Source: Leptospiraceae bacterium
GTDB taxonomy: Bacteria; Spirochaetota; Leptospiria; Leptospirales; Leptospiraceae
DNA length: 64,000 bases
NCBI GenBank assembly: GCA_022402465.1
Contig: JAKRSH010000027.1
Location: 1 to 64,000, forward strand
Reading direction: 5' to 3'
Part shown: positions 1 through 5,611 of the stretch, one piece after another
Position numbering within the stretch: position 1 is the first letter of the stretch
How the letters are laid out: each line of letters opens with the position of its first letter
The notes under the pieces: generated by a model
The model's input: only the letters and a program-made list of their open reading frames with translations
What the model was told of the DNA's origin: nothing
Databases searched by the model: none
Position numbers and translations under genes: made by a program

Positions 1-266
1 TATTTTCTATACTAAAATTTTCTATTTAGAAATTGCACTTCTTGATTGAAGTGGTTACTTATTAAATTTATACGTTAAAACTAAATCTATGGAGAGTTTT
101 TTCTTAATCATCCACCTACTCTCCCCTTTTTAAGCACTTTTAGAAATCAACTTTTATGCGATCAGTAAATGATGCTTTCGACAGTATATACTTATACAAT
201 TTACTTCATATCTCAGCAATATAAATTTAAAGTTATTAACTTCCATTCATAAGAAGAGGAAACATG
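1..266. other. Intergenic stretch at window edge
   Basis: No convincing coding sequence is visible on either strand. The only structure seen is a possible terminator hairpin at 91-132. A gene ending just left of the window could explain it. Confidence 0.4.
91..132 (+). terminator. Possible rho-independent terminator
   Basis: A 7-bp stem (GGAGAGT at 91-97, ACTCTCC at 118-124) with a loop of about 20 nt is followed by a short T run at 127-132. The long loop makes it weak. It would serve a plus-strand gene lying left of the window. Confidence 0.28.
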
Positions 267-623
267 CTAGAAAGAAATAACAGACTTTTTGTGTTTACTT
301 AGTAATTCGAAAGCTTCCATTTGATCGGCAAAGTGAGCATGTAATTTTTCTTTTTTCATTTCATTACAAAGCTCTGGATATAGATCGGCTTTTTCTATAT
401 GAGGAATATCTGTAACACTTACATTTTCAGATACCTTTTCAAAAATCCAAACTTTGTCTCCACAAGATAATTCAGTTTTGGCGACTACTCTTTTTGAACT
501 TTTCCACTCAATTACATCTGCAAAATCCTTTAGAAGAATTAACGAATTACCAATTGATGAACCATAAATTTTTCCTATTGACATATAACATTTATTAGTT
601 CTCTTAAAACAACTGATATCCAT
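267..623 (-). CDS. Hypothetical protein, 118 aa
   Basis: I do not recognise this protein. It has no clear signal peptide or membrane segment. The central part (about residues 18-70) alternates short hydrophobic strands and looks like a small beta-rich domain; the last third is charged and helical. It lies 9 bp downstream of the small ORF at 633-827 and is probably co-transcribed with it and the KTSC gene at 842-1177. No good Shine-Dalgarno precedes the ATG at 623. An internal ATG at 584 (MSIGK) is an alternative start, but also lacks a ribosome site. Confidence 0.5.
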   Translation of the reverse strand: MDISCFKRTNKCYMSIGKIYGSSIGNSLILLKDFADVIEWKSSKRVVAKTELSCGDKVWIFEKVSENVSVTDIPHIEKADLYPELCNEMKKEKLHAHFADQMEAFELLSKHKKSVISF

Positions 624-632
624 GATTGTTAA

Positions 633-827
633 TTATTTATTAAGATCATCATTTTTGTCCAAGTTTGTATAAATCAATAGCCCATTGGCAGATAAATGCA
701 TATCTGAGATGAATAAGCGTTTCGAATAGTCAATATCATCTAAAACAAATTTTTTACAAAATGTAAAATTATACATTACAAAAGTAGCCAAAATGAATTT
801 ATAAAAGTTCAAATAAATACTTTTCAT
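633..827 (-). CDS. Small putative lipoprotein, 64 aa
   Basis: A short protein with a lysine-containing start, a hydrophobic stretch at about residues 9-24 and a Cys at the end of it (FTFC), which resembles a loose spirochaetal lipobox. The rest is short and polar. An AAGG ribosome site just downstream of the preceding stop precedes the ATG at 827, so translation looks coupled to the KTSC gene upstream (14-bp gap). Family unknown. It could be a truncated lipoprotein. Confidence 0.45.
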   Translation of the reverse strand: MKSIYLNFYKFILATFVMYNFTFCKKFVLDDIDYSKRLFISDMHLSANGLLIYTNLDKNDDLNK

Positions 828-841
828 ATCTAACCTTTTCT

Positions 842-1177
842 TTATAAATATTTAGGAACATACCCATTCCTACAATCAAATTTTCCTTTTATAAACTCTT
901 TGTAAAACGTCCCTAAGGATCGGGAAGATATCCAAGCCTTTAGAGTATCACTAGATAGACCACAATAATGGTAATATGTATTATTTAGTTTAACTATGAG
1001 ATATTTATTCTGAGTATCATAAAGAATTCTTCTAACTAACGAACTATCTTGAATACTAATTTCGGATAATTGTTGATGTTCCAAATTCAACAATCCTCGA
1101 TATTTCACATAGATACTCTCAGAATGTAACGTTAAGTTAACAGATAAATAAATAACTATCACAATAATTCTATTCAA
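842..1177 (-). CDS. Secreted KTSC-domain protein, 111 aa
   Basis: Residues 1-19 form a signal peptide (short, hydrophobic, ending LHSES). Residues about 44-100 match the KTSC domain pattern: an ILYD strand, then LIVKL, a Y-x-Y-x-G turn (YYHYCGL), a helix and a final GTFYKEFIKG segment. KTSC domains are small, found alone or at protein C-termini, and their biochemical role is not established. The signal peptide places this copy in the periplasm or outside the cell, which is unusual because many KTSC proteins are cytoplasmic. First gene of a probable three-gene minus-strand unit (1177 down to 267). Confidence 0.65.
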   Translation of the reverse strand: MNRIIVIVIYLSVNLTLHSESIYVKYRGLLNLEHQQLSEISIQDSSLVRRILYDTQNKYLIVKLNNTYYHYCGLSSDTLKAWISSRSLGTFYKEFIKGKFDCRNGYVPKYL

Positions 1178-1264
1178 TTAAAATCGCACTTTGAATATAA
1201 ATTTACTTCAATAGGTATCAAGAATAGCTCTTTTTCGCCTAAGAAACCTTAAATTTTACAACTA

Positions 1265-1954
1265 TTATCCTTTACCTAAAAGATCATCTATTTCATCTTG
1301 AGACATTTTTTTTCCTATTATATTGGGAGAAGGAAAATCTATTTTTTCATTTACACCTCCCAAGGATTTAAGTTGTTCTATAATAATTCCAGGGTTGTCA
1401 CCAGATTGAATTGAGGTTACACCAGTAAGTATTATACGAAAACATCTTTGGAAAAGTGCAATGTAACTCTGGAACATATCCGATAGAGCTTCATAATATA
1501 AAGAATCAAGGAGATGTGATATCTTTTCTATAGAAATGATAAAATTACTTTTGATAAAATTATTCGACTCAATTAACTTTATCTGATCGGAAATAAAATT
1601 ATTTTCAGGATGCCCATTTAATAATAATATTTTTATGAATTTTTTAATATCATCTATGTCTCCTGTTCGTTTCGTGATGAAGTAAGGACGAAAAACTTGC
1701 CAATGATACTTAAAATTTTCTAAAGTACTAATTTCATAATTTGATATTATAAAACGAACAATATTAGAGTCAGTTCCATCAATTACAAGTTGTAATACTC
1801 TGCCAGTAATTTCATTAAAAAATCTTGAATTATTAGATTTTAACAAGTCTTCAATGCTAAGAAGTCCTTCTCGACGAGCTCTTTCTGCGATTTCAGCGAG
1901 ATATATTATTTGTTCCTTGGGATTTTCTGGATCGGGGAAGAGTATCTTGTACAT
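1265..1954 (-). CDS. Soluble MotA-like protein with C-terminal FliM-type EIDDLL motif
   Basis: Residues about 18-75 match the cytoplasmic loop of the flagellar stator protein MotA: LAEIAERARREGLLSIED followed by a segment ending VIDGTDSNIV. Residues about 165-205 match the MotA C-terminal tail (IILTGVTSIQSGDNPGIII). The transmembrane helices that lie around these parts in real MotA are absent, so the protein should be cytoplasmic. The last 13 residues (217-229, MSQDEIDDLLGKG) closely resemble the N-terminal EIDALL peptide of the switch protein FliM, which binds phosphorylated CheY. Known: the two motifs and their functions. Inferred: an adaptor or decoy acting on the motor. It stands alone in an accessory region with no flagellar neighbours. 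Confidence 0.65.
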   Translation of the reverse strand: MYKILFPDPENPKEQIIYLAEIAERARREGLLSIEDLLKSNNSRFFNEITGRVLQLVIDGTDSNIVRFIISNYEISTLENFKYHWQVFRPYFITKRTGDIDDIKKFIKILLLNGHPENNFISDQIKLIESNNFIKSNFIISIEKISHLLDSLYYEALSDMFQSYIALFQRCFRIILTGVTSIQSGDNPGIIIEQLKSLGGVNEKIDFPSPNIIGKKMSQDEIDDLLGKG

Positions 1955-2508
1955 TTTGATTTTTTCCTTATTAATAAATACATCACTTAGTTAGACTATA
2001 CAATTTTCCTTCCTACATATTAAATTGTGTTTTTTATTAAGTTTTAATAGATTACGAGAATCAAAGAGAAACGAATCTTAGTCTCCCCAATTTATATACC
2101 ATATGCTAGTTTTAATAAAATTTCTCTATGTATTCTCTAAATCGATCACGAAAGATATATTAGCTTATTCCTAACTGTACTGCTAATTCTACTAGTGAAA
2201 GCGATATACACTTAGTTCTTTTTAGTGCTTACTCAATGAACTCTGCTAGTATTTTTTCCTCGCAGTCTAAAACTTCTATTTCAAGGATTTTTTGGTATCA
2301 GCTTTTATGAAATCAGGGCACTTTATCACTGTGTATAATTGCTACAAAAATTTTTAAGTAGATATACCTAACTTAATATAAAAATAGATCAAATCATTCC
2401 TCAAGAAAGTTTTAACGAACTCGAATATTTTTTTGACTATACAGACTATTGCAATAATAAGCGAAGAAAACTACATTGGGATATAATAGTCCTATATTTT
2501 TTGTAAAT
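1955..2508. other. Gene-poor 554-bp stretch
   Basis: No intact gene is visible. The right end (2387-2509) contains an open stretch resembling the C-terminus of a transposase. The middle has short stop-broken reading frames on the minus strand, consistent with decayed genes but too short to name. Confidence 0.4.
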
Positions 2509-2509
2509 C
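2387..2509 (+). pseudogene. Possible transposase C-terminal remnant
   Basis: Read in the frame that includes the codon at 2399, this stretch encodes about 40 residues, including FNELEYFFDYTDYCNNKRRK, up to a TAA at about 2509. The pattern 'YxDYxNNxRR' resembles the end of IS3-type integrase-core transposases (YIDYYNNRR). There is no start codon and no upstream continuation, so if real it is a fragment. The similarity is short and could be chance. Confidence 0.3.
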
Positions 2510-3045
2510 TAATTGTCTAATGAGTGTCCAGTTTTATGGGGAGAGTTTATTATTTTATGAAAGATATAGTCAAACAAACCCAATACATATAACATGTATA
2601 CAAGCATAATTAACATTACTAAATATCCAAATGCACTCCAAAGCTCATATGGATGGCTTTTTTCTGAATAAATTCGTGTAGGAACATTAAATAACCATGT
2701 AATAAGAATAATAGGTATTAAAAATAAAAATATATAATTAAACACTTGATTTAATGTTAAGTTCGCGATTGGTATATCTCCTATAGAATTTGTGTTTAGG
2801 TTATTGAAGGTAGAAAATCCTAGATAGGAAATAAAGATTATTCTAAATATTATTCCCCACCACAGATCAAGTTTCCTTACTACTGAATCAAATTTTGAAT
2901 CACCCGAACTAGGTTTCCCCTTTTCTACATCCACTTCCGAGTCCTTATCAGAAATTTCATGTAATTCCTTATCTTCAAAAATTTTTAAAAAATAAATCAA
3001 TTTGTCCAAAACATATATAATTACTTTTTTTATTAGTTTAGACAT
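2509..3045 (-). CDS. Hypothetical membrane protein, 178 aa
   Basis: An acidic soluble N-terminal part (residues 1-55, rich in D, E, K and S) is followed by three predicted membrane helices at about residues 62-82, 95-116 and 135-160. No family motif is recognised. It has no close co-directional neighbour and sits between a decayed stretch and the WG-repeat gene. It is likely an inner-membrane accessory protein of unknown role. Confidence 0.5.
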   Translation of the reverse strand: MSKLIKKVIIYVLDKLIYFLKIFEDKELHEISDKDSEVDVEKGKPSSGDSKFDSVVRKLDLWWGIIFRIIFISYLGFSTFNNLNTNSIGDIPIANLTLNQVFNYIFLFLIPIILITWLFNVPTRIYSEKSHPYELWSAFGYLVMLIMLVYMLYVLGLFDYIFHKIINSPHKTGHSLDN

Positions 3046-3191
3046 TTATAAATATTTTGACTTATTATAAGATATTAAAACTCAAAAGAATTCAAATATT
3101 TACCTAGGATTCCAAAAAAAATAAGTTACTTAGTTGAATGAAATTCATTTAAAGATGCTTTAATCGATATTATTAGTCTAAAGGACATATT

Positions 3192-4136
3192 ATGGAAAAT
3201 GGAAAATACGGTTTCATAGACAAGACTGGTAAGATAGTCATTAAGCCTCAATTTGATAAAGCATACTTCTTCAGTGATGGACTTGCTAGGGTTGAGATAA
3301 GGAAGAAAGATGGGTTCATAGACAAGACTGGTAAGATAGTCATTAAGCCTCAATTTGATTTTGCAGACTTCTTCAGTGAAGGACTTGCTTGGGTTAAGAT
3401 AGGGAAGAAATACGGTCTCATAGATAAGACTGGCGAAATAATAATAAAGCCTCAATTTGATAGTGCCTATTCTTTCAGAGAAGGACTCGCTTCAGTAAAG
3501 ATTGATGGTAAATGGGGATGTATCGACAAGACTGGTAAGATAGTCATTAAGCCTCAGTTTGATGGTGCCTCCTATTTTTCAGAAGGACTCTCTTACGTTG
3601 TTATAAATAAAAAGTGGGGATATATCGACAAGACTAGTAAGATAGTCATTAAGCCTCAGTTTGATAGGGTAGAGCCTTTCAGTGAAGGACTTGCTTGGGT
3701 TAAGATAGGGAAGAAAGATGGGTTCATAGATAAGACTGGCGAAATAATAATAAAGCCTCAATTTGATAGTGCCTATTCTTTCAGAGAAGGACTCGCTTCA
3801 GTAAAGATTGATGGTAAATGGGGATGTATCGACAAGACTGGTAAGATAGTCATAAAACCTCAGTTTGAATCAACAGTTTCTTTCGATGAAGGACTCGCTG
3901 CATTTAGGATAGATTGGAAATACGGTCTCATAGATAAGACTGGCGAAATAATAATAAAGCCTCAATTTGATTTAGTATTTTCCTTTAATGAAGGTCTTGC
4001 CCCTGTTAGCATCGATGGTAAGTGGGGATCTATAGACAAAACGGGAGAGATGGTCATAAAGCCTCAATTTGATAGTGCACCCTCCTTTTTTGAAGGACTT
4101 GCTCCTGTTTGTATAGGTGATGTTCCTCTAGAATAA
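3192..4136 (+). CDS. WG-repeat protein, nine 34-residue repeats
   Basis: From residue 7 to the end the protein is nine tandem copies of a 34-residue unit with core GxIDKTGxIVIKPQFD, then xFxEGLAxVxI: the WG (KWG) beta-hairpin repeat. Repeats are often preceded by KW or KY. Such repeats are found in surface and secreted bacterial proteins, with binding roles usually assumed rather than proven. This one has no signal peptide and begins inside repeat 1, so the 5' part may be lost; however AAGGAC at 3181-3186 is a good ribosome site 5 bp before the ATG. DNA copies are nearly identical over long blocks (3418-3547 equals 3724-3853), showing recent expansion. The last repeat is cut short. Confidence 0.85.
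   Translation: MENGKYGFIDKTGKIVIKPQFDKAYFFSDGLARVEIRKKDGFIDKTGKIVIKPQFDFADFFSEGLAWVKIGKKYGLIDKTGEIIIKPQFDSAYSFREGLASVKIDGKWGCIDKTGKIVIKPQFDGASYFSEGLSYVVINKKWGYIDKTSKIVIKPQFDRVEPFSEGLAWVKIGKKDGFIDKTGEIIIKPQFDSAYSFREGLASVKIDGKWGCIDKTGKIVIKPQFESTVSFDEGLAAFRIDWKYGLIDKTGEIIIKPQFDLVFSFNEGLAPVSIDGKWGSIDKTGEMVIKPQFDSAPSFFEGLAPVCIGDVPLE
3391..3971 (+). repeat. Tandem 102-bp repeats with recent block duplication
   Basis: The WG units are 102 bp long. A block of at least 130 bp (3418-3547) recurs without a mismatch at 3724-3853, an offset of 306 bp or three units. The segment 3411-3461 recurs at 3921-3971, an offset of five units. This indicates unequal exchange or conversion among repeats. Confidence 0.85.
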
Positions 4137-4376
4137 GTATGAGCCTACTCACCGATGTTCGACTTTCATCATAGTAAACAAGGGAATGTTTGATATATCT
4201 CTCAAGTTTTTATAGAGCAATAACCTATGCTACCTTTTTTTACTCAAGAAAATATTTTTTCACACTTTGAAGGAAGACCTAATAATAACAAACGCTTAGT
4301 TAAAGTATTTATAAGTATAAATTTTTATTCAAAATAAAATATAGATATAAAATAGCATTGGAGAAAATTATAATAA

Positions 4377-4827
4377 GTGATTATTAATAAAATTAGAATT
4401 CTATTTGATACAAATGTCTTCAATGAGATTTTAGATAACAAAATACCTCTACCAGATTCAGACAAATATATCTGCTATGCAACACCTTTACAATTAATGG
4501 AAATAATAAGAACACAGGATGTTTCTAGAAAAAATAATCTATTAAGTGTATATAATGAAATCGCACCTAAAATTTATGAATTGAAAAGTATGGTCTGGGG
4601 AATTAATGAGTGGGAATCGATAACTTGGGATGAGAATGGACGGTACTATTCAATTCTAAAGGAGAAATTAGATCAAGAAAGGAAAAAAAATTAGTAATGA
4701 TCACGATGCACTTATAGCAGAAGTTGCGATAGCTGAAGGGATGATTTTTGTTACCAATGATGATACCTTATATAAAGTTATGAAAGAAATGAAACAATAT
4801 GTTATAAAAGCTTTCGAATTAAATTGA
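4377..4827 (+). pseudogene. PIN-domain toxin, frameshifted at an A8 tract
   Basis: A GTG start at 4377 (GGAG at about 4360) opens a PIN-domain N-terminus, ILFDTNVFNEIL, with the first catalytic Asp. The frame closes at 4694, just after eight A residues (4683-4690). Removing one A continues the domain: SNDHDALIAEVAIAEG, then IFVTNDDTL, giving the missing acidic residues and a stop at 4825-4827. The fused product of about 149 aa is a normal PIN length. PIN proteins are usually RNases acting as toxins of VapBC-type pairs, but no antitoxin gene is visible next to it. Either a recent pseudogene or expression by slippage on the A tract. Confidence 0.7.
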
Positions 4828-4928
4828 ATTTCAGAAAAAACTACACAATACCTAATAATTGTTTAACTCGAACTTAAACTAAAAGTATTGTCAGTTATAT
4901 TATAGGAATAAAGATATGAGTTGACCTG

Positions 4929-5308
4929 TGACCTGCTCCCCAAAAACTGAACCGATTAATAAGTTAGTTTTCACCGATGATAATAGGAGAAAACAATGGC
5001 AAAAAAGAAATTTCAAGTATGGACTAAAAATAAAGGTATAGATATCCATTTTATTGATATAGGAAAGCCGACTCAGAATGCATATATAGAAAGTTTCAAT
5101 GGTATGCTGAGAGATGAGTGTTTGAATCTTAACTTATTTAAAAACCAAAATGAATTATCTCGTGCCTTAGAAATATATCAAAAGGATTATAAGAATGAAA
5201 GACTTCATTCTTCGTTAAACTATTTGTCCCGTTAGAATATAAGTTGAAGTTTGGATAAGATTTTTTTGAAAACTAACTTATTTACTGGTACTGAAAATGG
5301 GGACAGCT
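4929..5308 (+). mobile_element. Internally deleted IS3-family element
   Basis: The left end at 4929 (TGACCTGCTCCCC) and the right end near 5300 (TGGGGACAG) form imperfect inverted repeats typical of IS3-family elements. The interior, about 380 bp instead of the usual 1.2-1.5 kb, keeps only the start of orfA joined to the end of orfB. A second TGACCTG at 4922-4928 directly precedes the left end. It is a non-autonomous remnant; the exact right boundary is uncertain because the terminal bases have diverged. Confidence 0.6.
4996..5258 (+). pseudogene. IS3-family transposase fragment (orfA start fused to orfB end)
   Basis: The reading frame begins MAKKKF, like an IS3 orfA start with an AGGAGA site before it, and passes directly into the end of the orfB integrase core: GKPTQNAYIESFNG, RDECLN, NERLHSSLNYLS. 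The catalytic DDE residues are missing apart from the Glu of YIESFNG. A stop occurs at 5233-5235, but shifting frame there restores EYKLKFG and a stop at 5256-5258, the normal orfB end. So the gene has a large deletion plus a frameshift and cannot transpose by itself. Confidence 0.7.
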
Positions 5309-5446
5309 AGAGCAATAGAAACTAAAGGTTATACTAAGACATCATACACTACTAGAAGACAAGTAAAAGTAAAAGCTGATAGAAGTAATGACTTTAAGAG
5401 TGAAGACTTTGAGTTAAGTAACTTTGTGAAGAGGAGTGATGAGATA

Positions 5447-5528
5447 TGCGGGCGGAGGGACTTGAACCCCCACGCCTTTCGGCGCCAGAACCTAAATCTG
5501 GTGCGTCTGCCAATTTCGCCACGCCCGC
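5447..5528 (-). tRNA. tRNA-Leu (anticodon TAG)
   Basis: Reverse complement begins GCGGGCGTGGCGAAATTGGC and ends with the matching GCCCGC plus discriminator A at 5447. The anticodon arm CAGAT-TTAGG-TTCTG carries TAG in the loop, reading CUA leucine codons. A variable arm (GGCGCCGAAAGGCGT) and the T arm GGGGGTTCAAGTCCC are present; the long variable arm is typical of tRNA-Leu. CCA is not encoded. The 3' end faces the accessory region 1-5440. Confidence 0.95.
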
Positions 5529-5611
5529 ATGTTGACCAGTGTTTGAAGGACAGCCTATTTTTCAATAAAAAATTGTTTGCCAAATCCTGAGGAACTTACA
5601 AAGTCAAGCCC

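Follow-up and report, generated by a model that had tools for sequence, protein, structure and literature searches.

The gene described here, from a Leptospiraceae bacterium, encodes the cytoplasmic sequence of the flagellar stator protein MotA without the membrane part, and its product ends in a FliM-like peptide. The component pieces are all known and their combination is what is new: none of the Pfam and NCBIfam models scanned names the soluble MotA/FliG_C/tail architecture, and no published description of it was found in the open-access papers searched. As a tentative reading, to which we give somewhat less than an even chance, the protein would be a soluble mimic of the MotA cytoplasmic part, carried on accessory DNA, that binds to FliG and by its tail to CheY-P, and modulates the motor.

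Gene and feature assignment

The 229-aa ORF runs on the minus strand from an ATG at position 1954 to position 1265 of the window, by which we mean the whole 64,000-nucleotide stretch of DNA that was analyzed. A preliminary description had reported an ORF at 1265–1954, which does exist, but its strand had to be corrected to minus; the plus strand of this interval is full of stops. The assigned features are as follows.

1964–1969, minus strand: ribosome-binding-site-like AAGGAA upstream of the ATG (from the sequence)
1265–1954, minus strand: soluble MotA-like protein, 229 aa, stop codon 1265–1267 (profile, PDB-sequence, hydropathy, model and Foldseek evidence)
1709–1942, minus strand: first MotA cytoplasmic stretch, residues 5–82, the TM2–TM3 loop of MotA (NCBIfam MotA 2–80, PDB MotA 19–79, pLDDT mostly >90)
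1847–1879, minus strand: putative FliG-contact motif ARREGLLSIED, residues 26–36 (PomA alignment, conservation in soluble domains)
1460–1708, minus strand: non-hydrophobic residues 83–165 in place of TM3–TM4 (hydropathy; common to the G103 relative; model confidence low at 90–140)
1355–1459, minus strand: second MotA cytoplasmic stretch, residues 166–200, after TM4 in MotA, RIILTGVTSIQSGDNPGIIIEQL (PDB sequence match, model)
1268–1306, minus strand: tail MSQDEIDDLLGKG, residues 217–229, resembling the CheY-binding peptides at the N-terminus of FliM and the C-terminus of CheZ (predicted helix 219–225)
5446–5529, minus strand: tRNA-Leu bounding the low-GC stretch of accessory appearance (1 to about 5.4 kb) in which the gene lies; its 3' end faces the low-GC side

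MotA likeness and the missing membrane part

Five NCBIfam stator models match the protein with E-values from 7e-11 to 6e-7, all below the full-length cut-offs, and the MotA match (E 7e-11) spans residues 2–80. In a sequence search of PDB (E 5e-6), MotA (6ysf) matches residues 19–79 and 160–213 and PomA (8brd) matches residues 9–197. Pfam MotA_ExbB does not match the protein; in the genome's own MotA it covers residues 101–217, the TM3–TM4 region included. Hydropathy over 19 residues peaks at 1.23, whereas the genome's own MotA reaches 2.37; this indicates that the protein has no TM helix, and no coding for TM1–TM2 was found upstream of the gene in the three minus-strand frames. Both the four TM helices of MotA and its MotA_ExbB channel domain are therefore absent. 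No motB partner is present among the neighbouring ORFs, and the genome's true motA adjoins a MotB-like ORF, as judged by eye. In a pairwise alignment of the insert at residues 83–165, GHPENNFI of the window protein corresponds to GHPQNTFI of its relative in another spirochaete genome (G103).

For structure prediction the window protein was aligned with 32 membrane MotAs, and the resulting model has a mean pLDDT of 79.7 and a pTM of 0.69 with these MotA rows, pLDDT being >90 over most of both MotA stretches and poor in the middle (about 90–140); a single-sequence model gave pLDDT 40. When the model was compared with PDB by Foldseek, MotA/PomA occupied the first 22 places with probability 1.00 (E 2.5e-4 to 3e-2, TM-scores 0.3 to 0.6). 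The window protein is thus predicted to fold like MotA/PomA, in a test that leans on the MotA rows of the alignment. The preliminary description had claimed that two cytoplasmic regions of MotA are kept and that the membrane helices are lacking, and had proposed a profile search and a structure prediction; the NCBIfam and PDB matches bear out the former claim, the hydropathy peak and the upstream search the latter, and the profile search and the model, the model with its MotA rows, both point to MotA.

FliG-contact residues

According to the PomA alignment, R27 of the window protein corresponds to R90 of E. coli MotA (R88 of PomA) and E35 to E98 (E96 of PomA). MotA R90 and E98 pair with FliG D289 and R281 (PMC6079164), and cryo-EM has shown that adjacent MotA domains grip FliG_C between them (PMC11302681). 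The R90/E98 equivalents are kept in 70/70 membrane MotAs compared. Among 26 soluble domains, the former is R in 23 and the latter E in 22 and D in 2 more, and the contact residues are missing in a few soluble members (G003, G019, and G086). One fusion protein (G219) matches both the MotA chain and the FliG chain of 8ucs, and several fused FliG_C parts keep, by eye, the positions that we take to be R281 and D289 in E. coli numbering.

The C-terminal tail

The genome contains 41 DNA matches of the EIDx[LF][LF] type, and SQDEIDxLL occurs in frame only in FliM (MTEILSQDEIDALL; one FliM is above cut-off in the genome), in FliN (MGEGSLSQDEIDALL; named FliN by eye) and in the window ORF. Among 1351 distinct ORFs of the loci compared, S[QAE][DE]E[IV]DxL[LF] lies within the last 30 residues of two, both soluble MotA-like, and EIDxL[LF] was found in the last 40 residues of none of 135 membrane MotAs. 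The model gives the tail as a short helix (residues 219–225, pLDDT about 70). A search of PDB with the tail alone returned a near-identical 10-residue stretch in myosin light chain, and we rejected such chance matches as evidence of homology.

By itself the tail is too short to prove homology, yet judged from its occurrences it is more than chance, and its weight comes from its recurrence in relatives rather than from an E-value. The G103 relative has LSTEEIDALL at the same place after its MotA part, and two of the three paralogues of Treponema saccharophilum have EIDALL at or close to the end, and the third carries the weaker EVDEFL. The EIDxLL tail is confined to these two lineages and that of the window protein; most soluble members do not have it. 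The resemblance of the last 13 residues to the FliM peptide, as noted in the preliminary description, therefore stands, and the nearest relative (G103) retains a counterpart of the EIDDLL motif. The tail also resembles the C-terminal sequence of E. coli CheZ. Binding of CheY-P by it is suggested by analogy with FliM and CheZ, the latter being the precedent for a CheY-binding peptide at a C-terminus (Guhaniyogi 2006, as cited in PMC11528121).

Soluble MotA family in Spirochaetota

A first profile, for which the window protein and four other soluble sequences were used, matched the majority of MotAs in the phylum, and members without TM were picked out of these matches by script. A second profile, built from 12 soluble cores with the window protein and the G103 protein left out, matches 19 of the 393 Spirochaetota genomes at E 1e-20, and the own genome and G103 bring the number to 21; because solubility was the criterion by which the sequences for the profile and alignments were selected, 21/393 is a census, with Spirochaetota as its scope, rather than an independent test. 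Two matches of the second profile are exceptions concerning TM: L212 has a predicted segment near the N-terminus and L203 is borderline.

The MotA part is followed by FliG_C in four Leptospiraceae genomes (G003, G004, G006, and G007) and in G173, G193, G219, G076, and G165, and the order is reversed in G019. In G103 the order is MotA part, EIDALL, and FliG_C. Tandem genes with a weak FliG_C in the second occur in G244 and G308, and in G273, G347, and G192 a stand-alone soluble MotA gene has FliG-like genes next to it or close by. A 687-aa protein of G213 (L213:1027-3090) consists of leucine-rich repeats (LRR) and then two soluble MotA domains. Pfam FliG_C is above cut-off in nine of the ten such proteins scanned, this LRR protein being the exception, and also in the G103 protein. 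FliG_C is absent from the window protein and from its neighbours according to Pfam and the neighbouring ORFs, and the nearest FliG_C on the contig lies about 167 kb from the gene. As far as these sequences indicate, the family is scattered and its association with FliG_C is steadier than the EIDxLL tail. The Leptospiraceae fusions, a set that does not include the window gene itself, are under strong purifying selection, with dN/dS of 0.04 to 0.06 where computable, a rough figure because dS is about 1.6 to 2.9.

In a single-protein search of the genome contigs no relative was found, and a profile search of them gave MotA-type relatives, none of which was soluble in the ORF check. The viral contigs yielded no relative in the scans, the phage and plasmid records one weak phage match (E 0.5) and the T. 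saccharophilum plasmid, and neither PADLOC nor PHROGs had a match for the window protein. In this plasmid, pTS2 (L038 and L185), an array of small-protein genes lies between LRR proteins and contains the three soluble MotA paralogues, one of them with a stretch weakly resembling DNA polymerase III beta (E 0.008) ahead of it; EIDxLL motifs are found also on other proteins of the array (280 and 284 aa). In G003, a soluble MotA–FliG_C gene is followed by two diverged, degenerate-looking tandem copies (L233:3830-6234).

In a tree of soluble and membrane MotAs based on 107 columns, weakly supported and with many long branches, the soluble label takes 3 changes where shuffles take 23. The window protein is on a long branch and is not grouped with the genome's own MotAs. 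Recent truncation of the genome's own motA was rejected because of this tree and because TM coding is lacking upstream. A single origin and multiple origins of the soluble forms are both compatible with the weakly supported tree.

Genomic setting

The window begins at a contig end, and GC is 28–35% up to about 6 kb and 36–40% thereafter. The low-GC segment with the gene looks like an accessory segment or island, in which no integrase was seen; the neighbours of the gene are non-motility genes, and the genome retains the normal motor genes for FliG, FliM, and MotA, its FliG_C proteins numbering three. In G103, the terminase, portal, capsid, sheath, tape-measure, and baseplate genes of a contractile-tail prophage are on the same strand as the relative (L037:7522-8511, with L234), which follows the prophage's tail-fibre gene at a distance of about 1.3 kb. 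The region just after the tail-fibre gene often holds cargo (moron) genes, and the G103 gene is either a member of the prophage or just outside it.

Proposed role and alternatives

The MotA cytoplasmic sequence without membrane part, which is the starting point of the proposed role, is directly observed. R27/R28 and E35 would then dock on the torque helix of FliG_C, either of the C-ring or of a FliG paralogue, and the C-terminal SQDEIDDLL helix may bind CheY-P like the FliM N-terminus or the CheZ C-terminus, so that the occupancy or effect of the protein would track the chemotaxis state. The protein could compete with true stators for FliG and thereby act, possibly in either direction, as a clutch, a brake or a modulator of the switch; it would itself generate no torque, because it cannot conduct ions. 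The same module may exist in self-paired or rotor-side form in relatives with FliG_C fused or next door.

The reading as a soluble stator mimic is based on the MotA homology and the MotA-like model without TM. Docking on FliG is suggested by the contact residues kept in most soluble members and by the repeated FliG_C fusion in either order, or adjacent FliG-like genes, in several spirochaete families, and a functional module by the strong purifying selection on the Leptospiraceae fusions. Docking on CheY-P is suggested by a tail found otherwise only in the genome's FliM and FliN and recurring in G103 and T. saccharophilum, and accessory DNA by the low GC beside tRNA-Leu and by a prophage tail-fibre gene shortly before the nearest relative. 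Against this reading, the window protein has no FliG_C and is encoded among non-motility genes, the EIDxLL tail is missing in most soluble members and too short alone, and the contact residues have been lost in G003, G019, and G086. Furthermore, MotA binds FliG as a membrane-held pentamer, with FliG_C between two MotA domains (PMC11302681), and a monomer may therefore bind FliG weakly. The preliminary description had proposed an adaptor between stator-like contacts and chemotaxis signalling; the MotA domain, the lack of TM and the FliM-like tail agree with this idea, which is only partly supported because the tail on which it mostly rests is a minority feature, found in three lineages.

A non-flagellar signalling or conflict module, in which soluble MotA and FliG_C form a stand-alone pair, EIDxLL serves as a recruitment tag and the motor is not acted on, appears rather unlikely. 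It would fit the array and mobile settings (the T. saccharophilum plasmid array between LRR proteins, the LRR-MotA-MotA protein of G213, and the prophage neighbour in G103) and the fusion to a weak DnaN-like stretch, but torque-interface residues, which would be superfluous for a recycled scaffold, are kept, the genome has a normal motor, and PADLOC was negative. We consider it improbable that the protein is a CheY-P sink or anchor, with a tail that titrates or positions CheY-P and a MotA part that is a stable carrier or motor-proximal holder: the tail is nearly identical to that of FliM and CheZ offers the precedent mentioned above, yet most members have kept the MotA part and contact residues but not the tail.

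Least probable, in our view, is a decaying stator remnant or functionless gene fragment. The long branch, low GC, and contig-end location would be expected of it, the selection figures come from fusions elsewhere without a close orthologue of the window gene, and tandem copies in G003 look degenerate; the ORF is nevertheless intact with a ribosome-binding site, it is not sister to the genome's own MotAs, it has a specific insert in common with the G103 protein, purifying selection acts on fusions elsewhere, and decay leaves the FliM-like tail unexplained.

Comparison with known systems

The window protein resembles the MotA/PomA stator (6ysf, 8ucs, and 8brd) in both cytoplasmic stretches, the predicted core fold, and the R90 and E98 contacts, but it has no TM1–TM4 and hence no ion channel, no adjacent motB, and an extra FliM-like tail. 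Its SQDEIDxLL, present also in the genome's FliM and FliN, is like the FliM N-terminal peptide SQDEIDALL but is C-terminal, and the protein has no FliM middle or C-terminal domain (no match to PF02154, the middle domain). With CheZ it shares a CheY-P-binding-like helix at the extreme C-terminus, and no Pfam or NCBIfam match to the CheZ phosphatase body was found in it. The spirochaete soluble MotA–FliG_C fusions have the same soluble MotA cytoplasmic domain and contact motif, and that of G103 also the insert and EIDxLL, but the window protein is without FliG_C. EpsE has a glycosyltransferase-like fold and YcgR a PilZ fold, both unrelated to the window protein, and the analogy with them is functional only. 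The EpsE clutch and the YcgR brake, both soluble, are reported to reduce motor output at FliG or MotA (PMC3000366 and PMC10140304).

If the soluble mimic reading is true, a channel-less stator fragment has been turned into a soluble regulator, which some mobile elements would carry to steer host motility. A broader and more doubtful view is that spirochaetes and mobile elements carry soluble stator-rotor modules, composed of MotA cytoplasmic, FliG_C, and FliM-type peptide parts, which would reprogram motility via the motor or the CheY-P pool, sometimes as prophage cargo. The natural fusions of MotA cytoplasmic part and FliG_C could become single-chain tools for the study of the torque interface. 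How motors at both ends of the spirochaete cell are coordinated is still open (PMC7225975); the patchy occurrence of the soluble MotA family argues against it as the general answer, and it would be a testable modifier.

Other genes at the loci

The low-GC segment (1–5446) between the contig end and tRNA-Leu holds orphan genes. A KTSC-domain protein with a signal-peptide-like start (842–1177, minus strand) is encoded on the same strand as the MotA-like gene, 88 bases downstream of it, and a WG-repeat protein (3192–4136, plus strand) has nine repeats with a DNA repeat spacing of 102 bases. At another locus (L186:4380-5345), a FliG-like protein with FliG_M and FliG_C and, by eye, a RelB/DinJ antitoxin-like N-terminus is encoded directly upstream of a soluble MotA gene.
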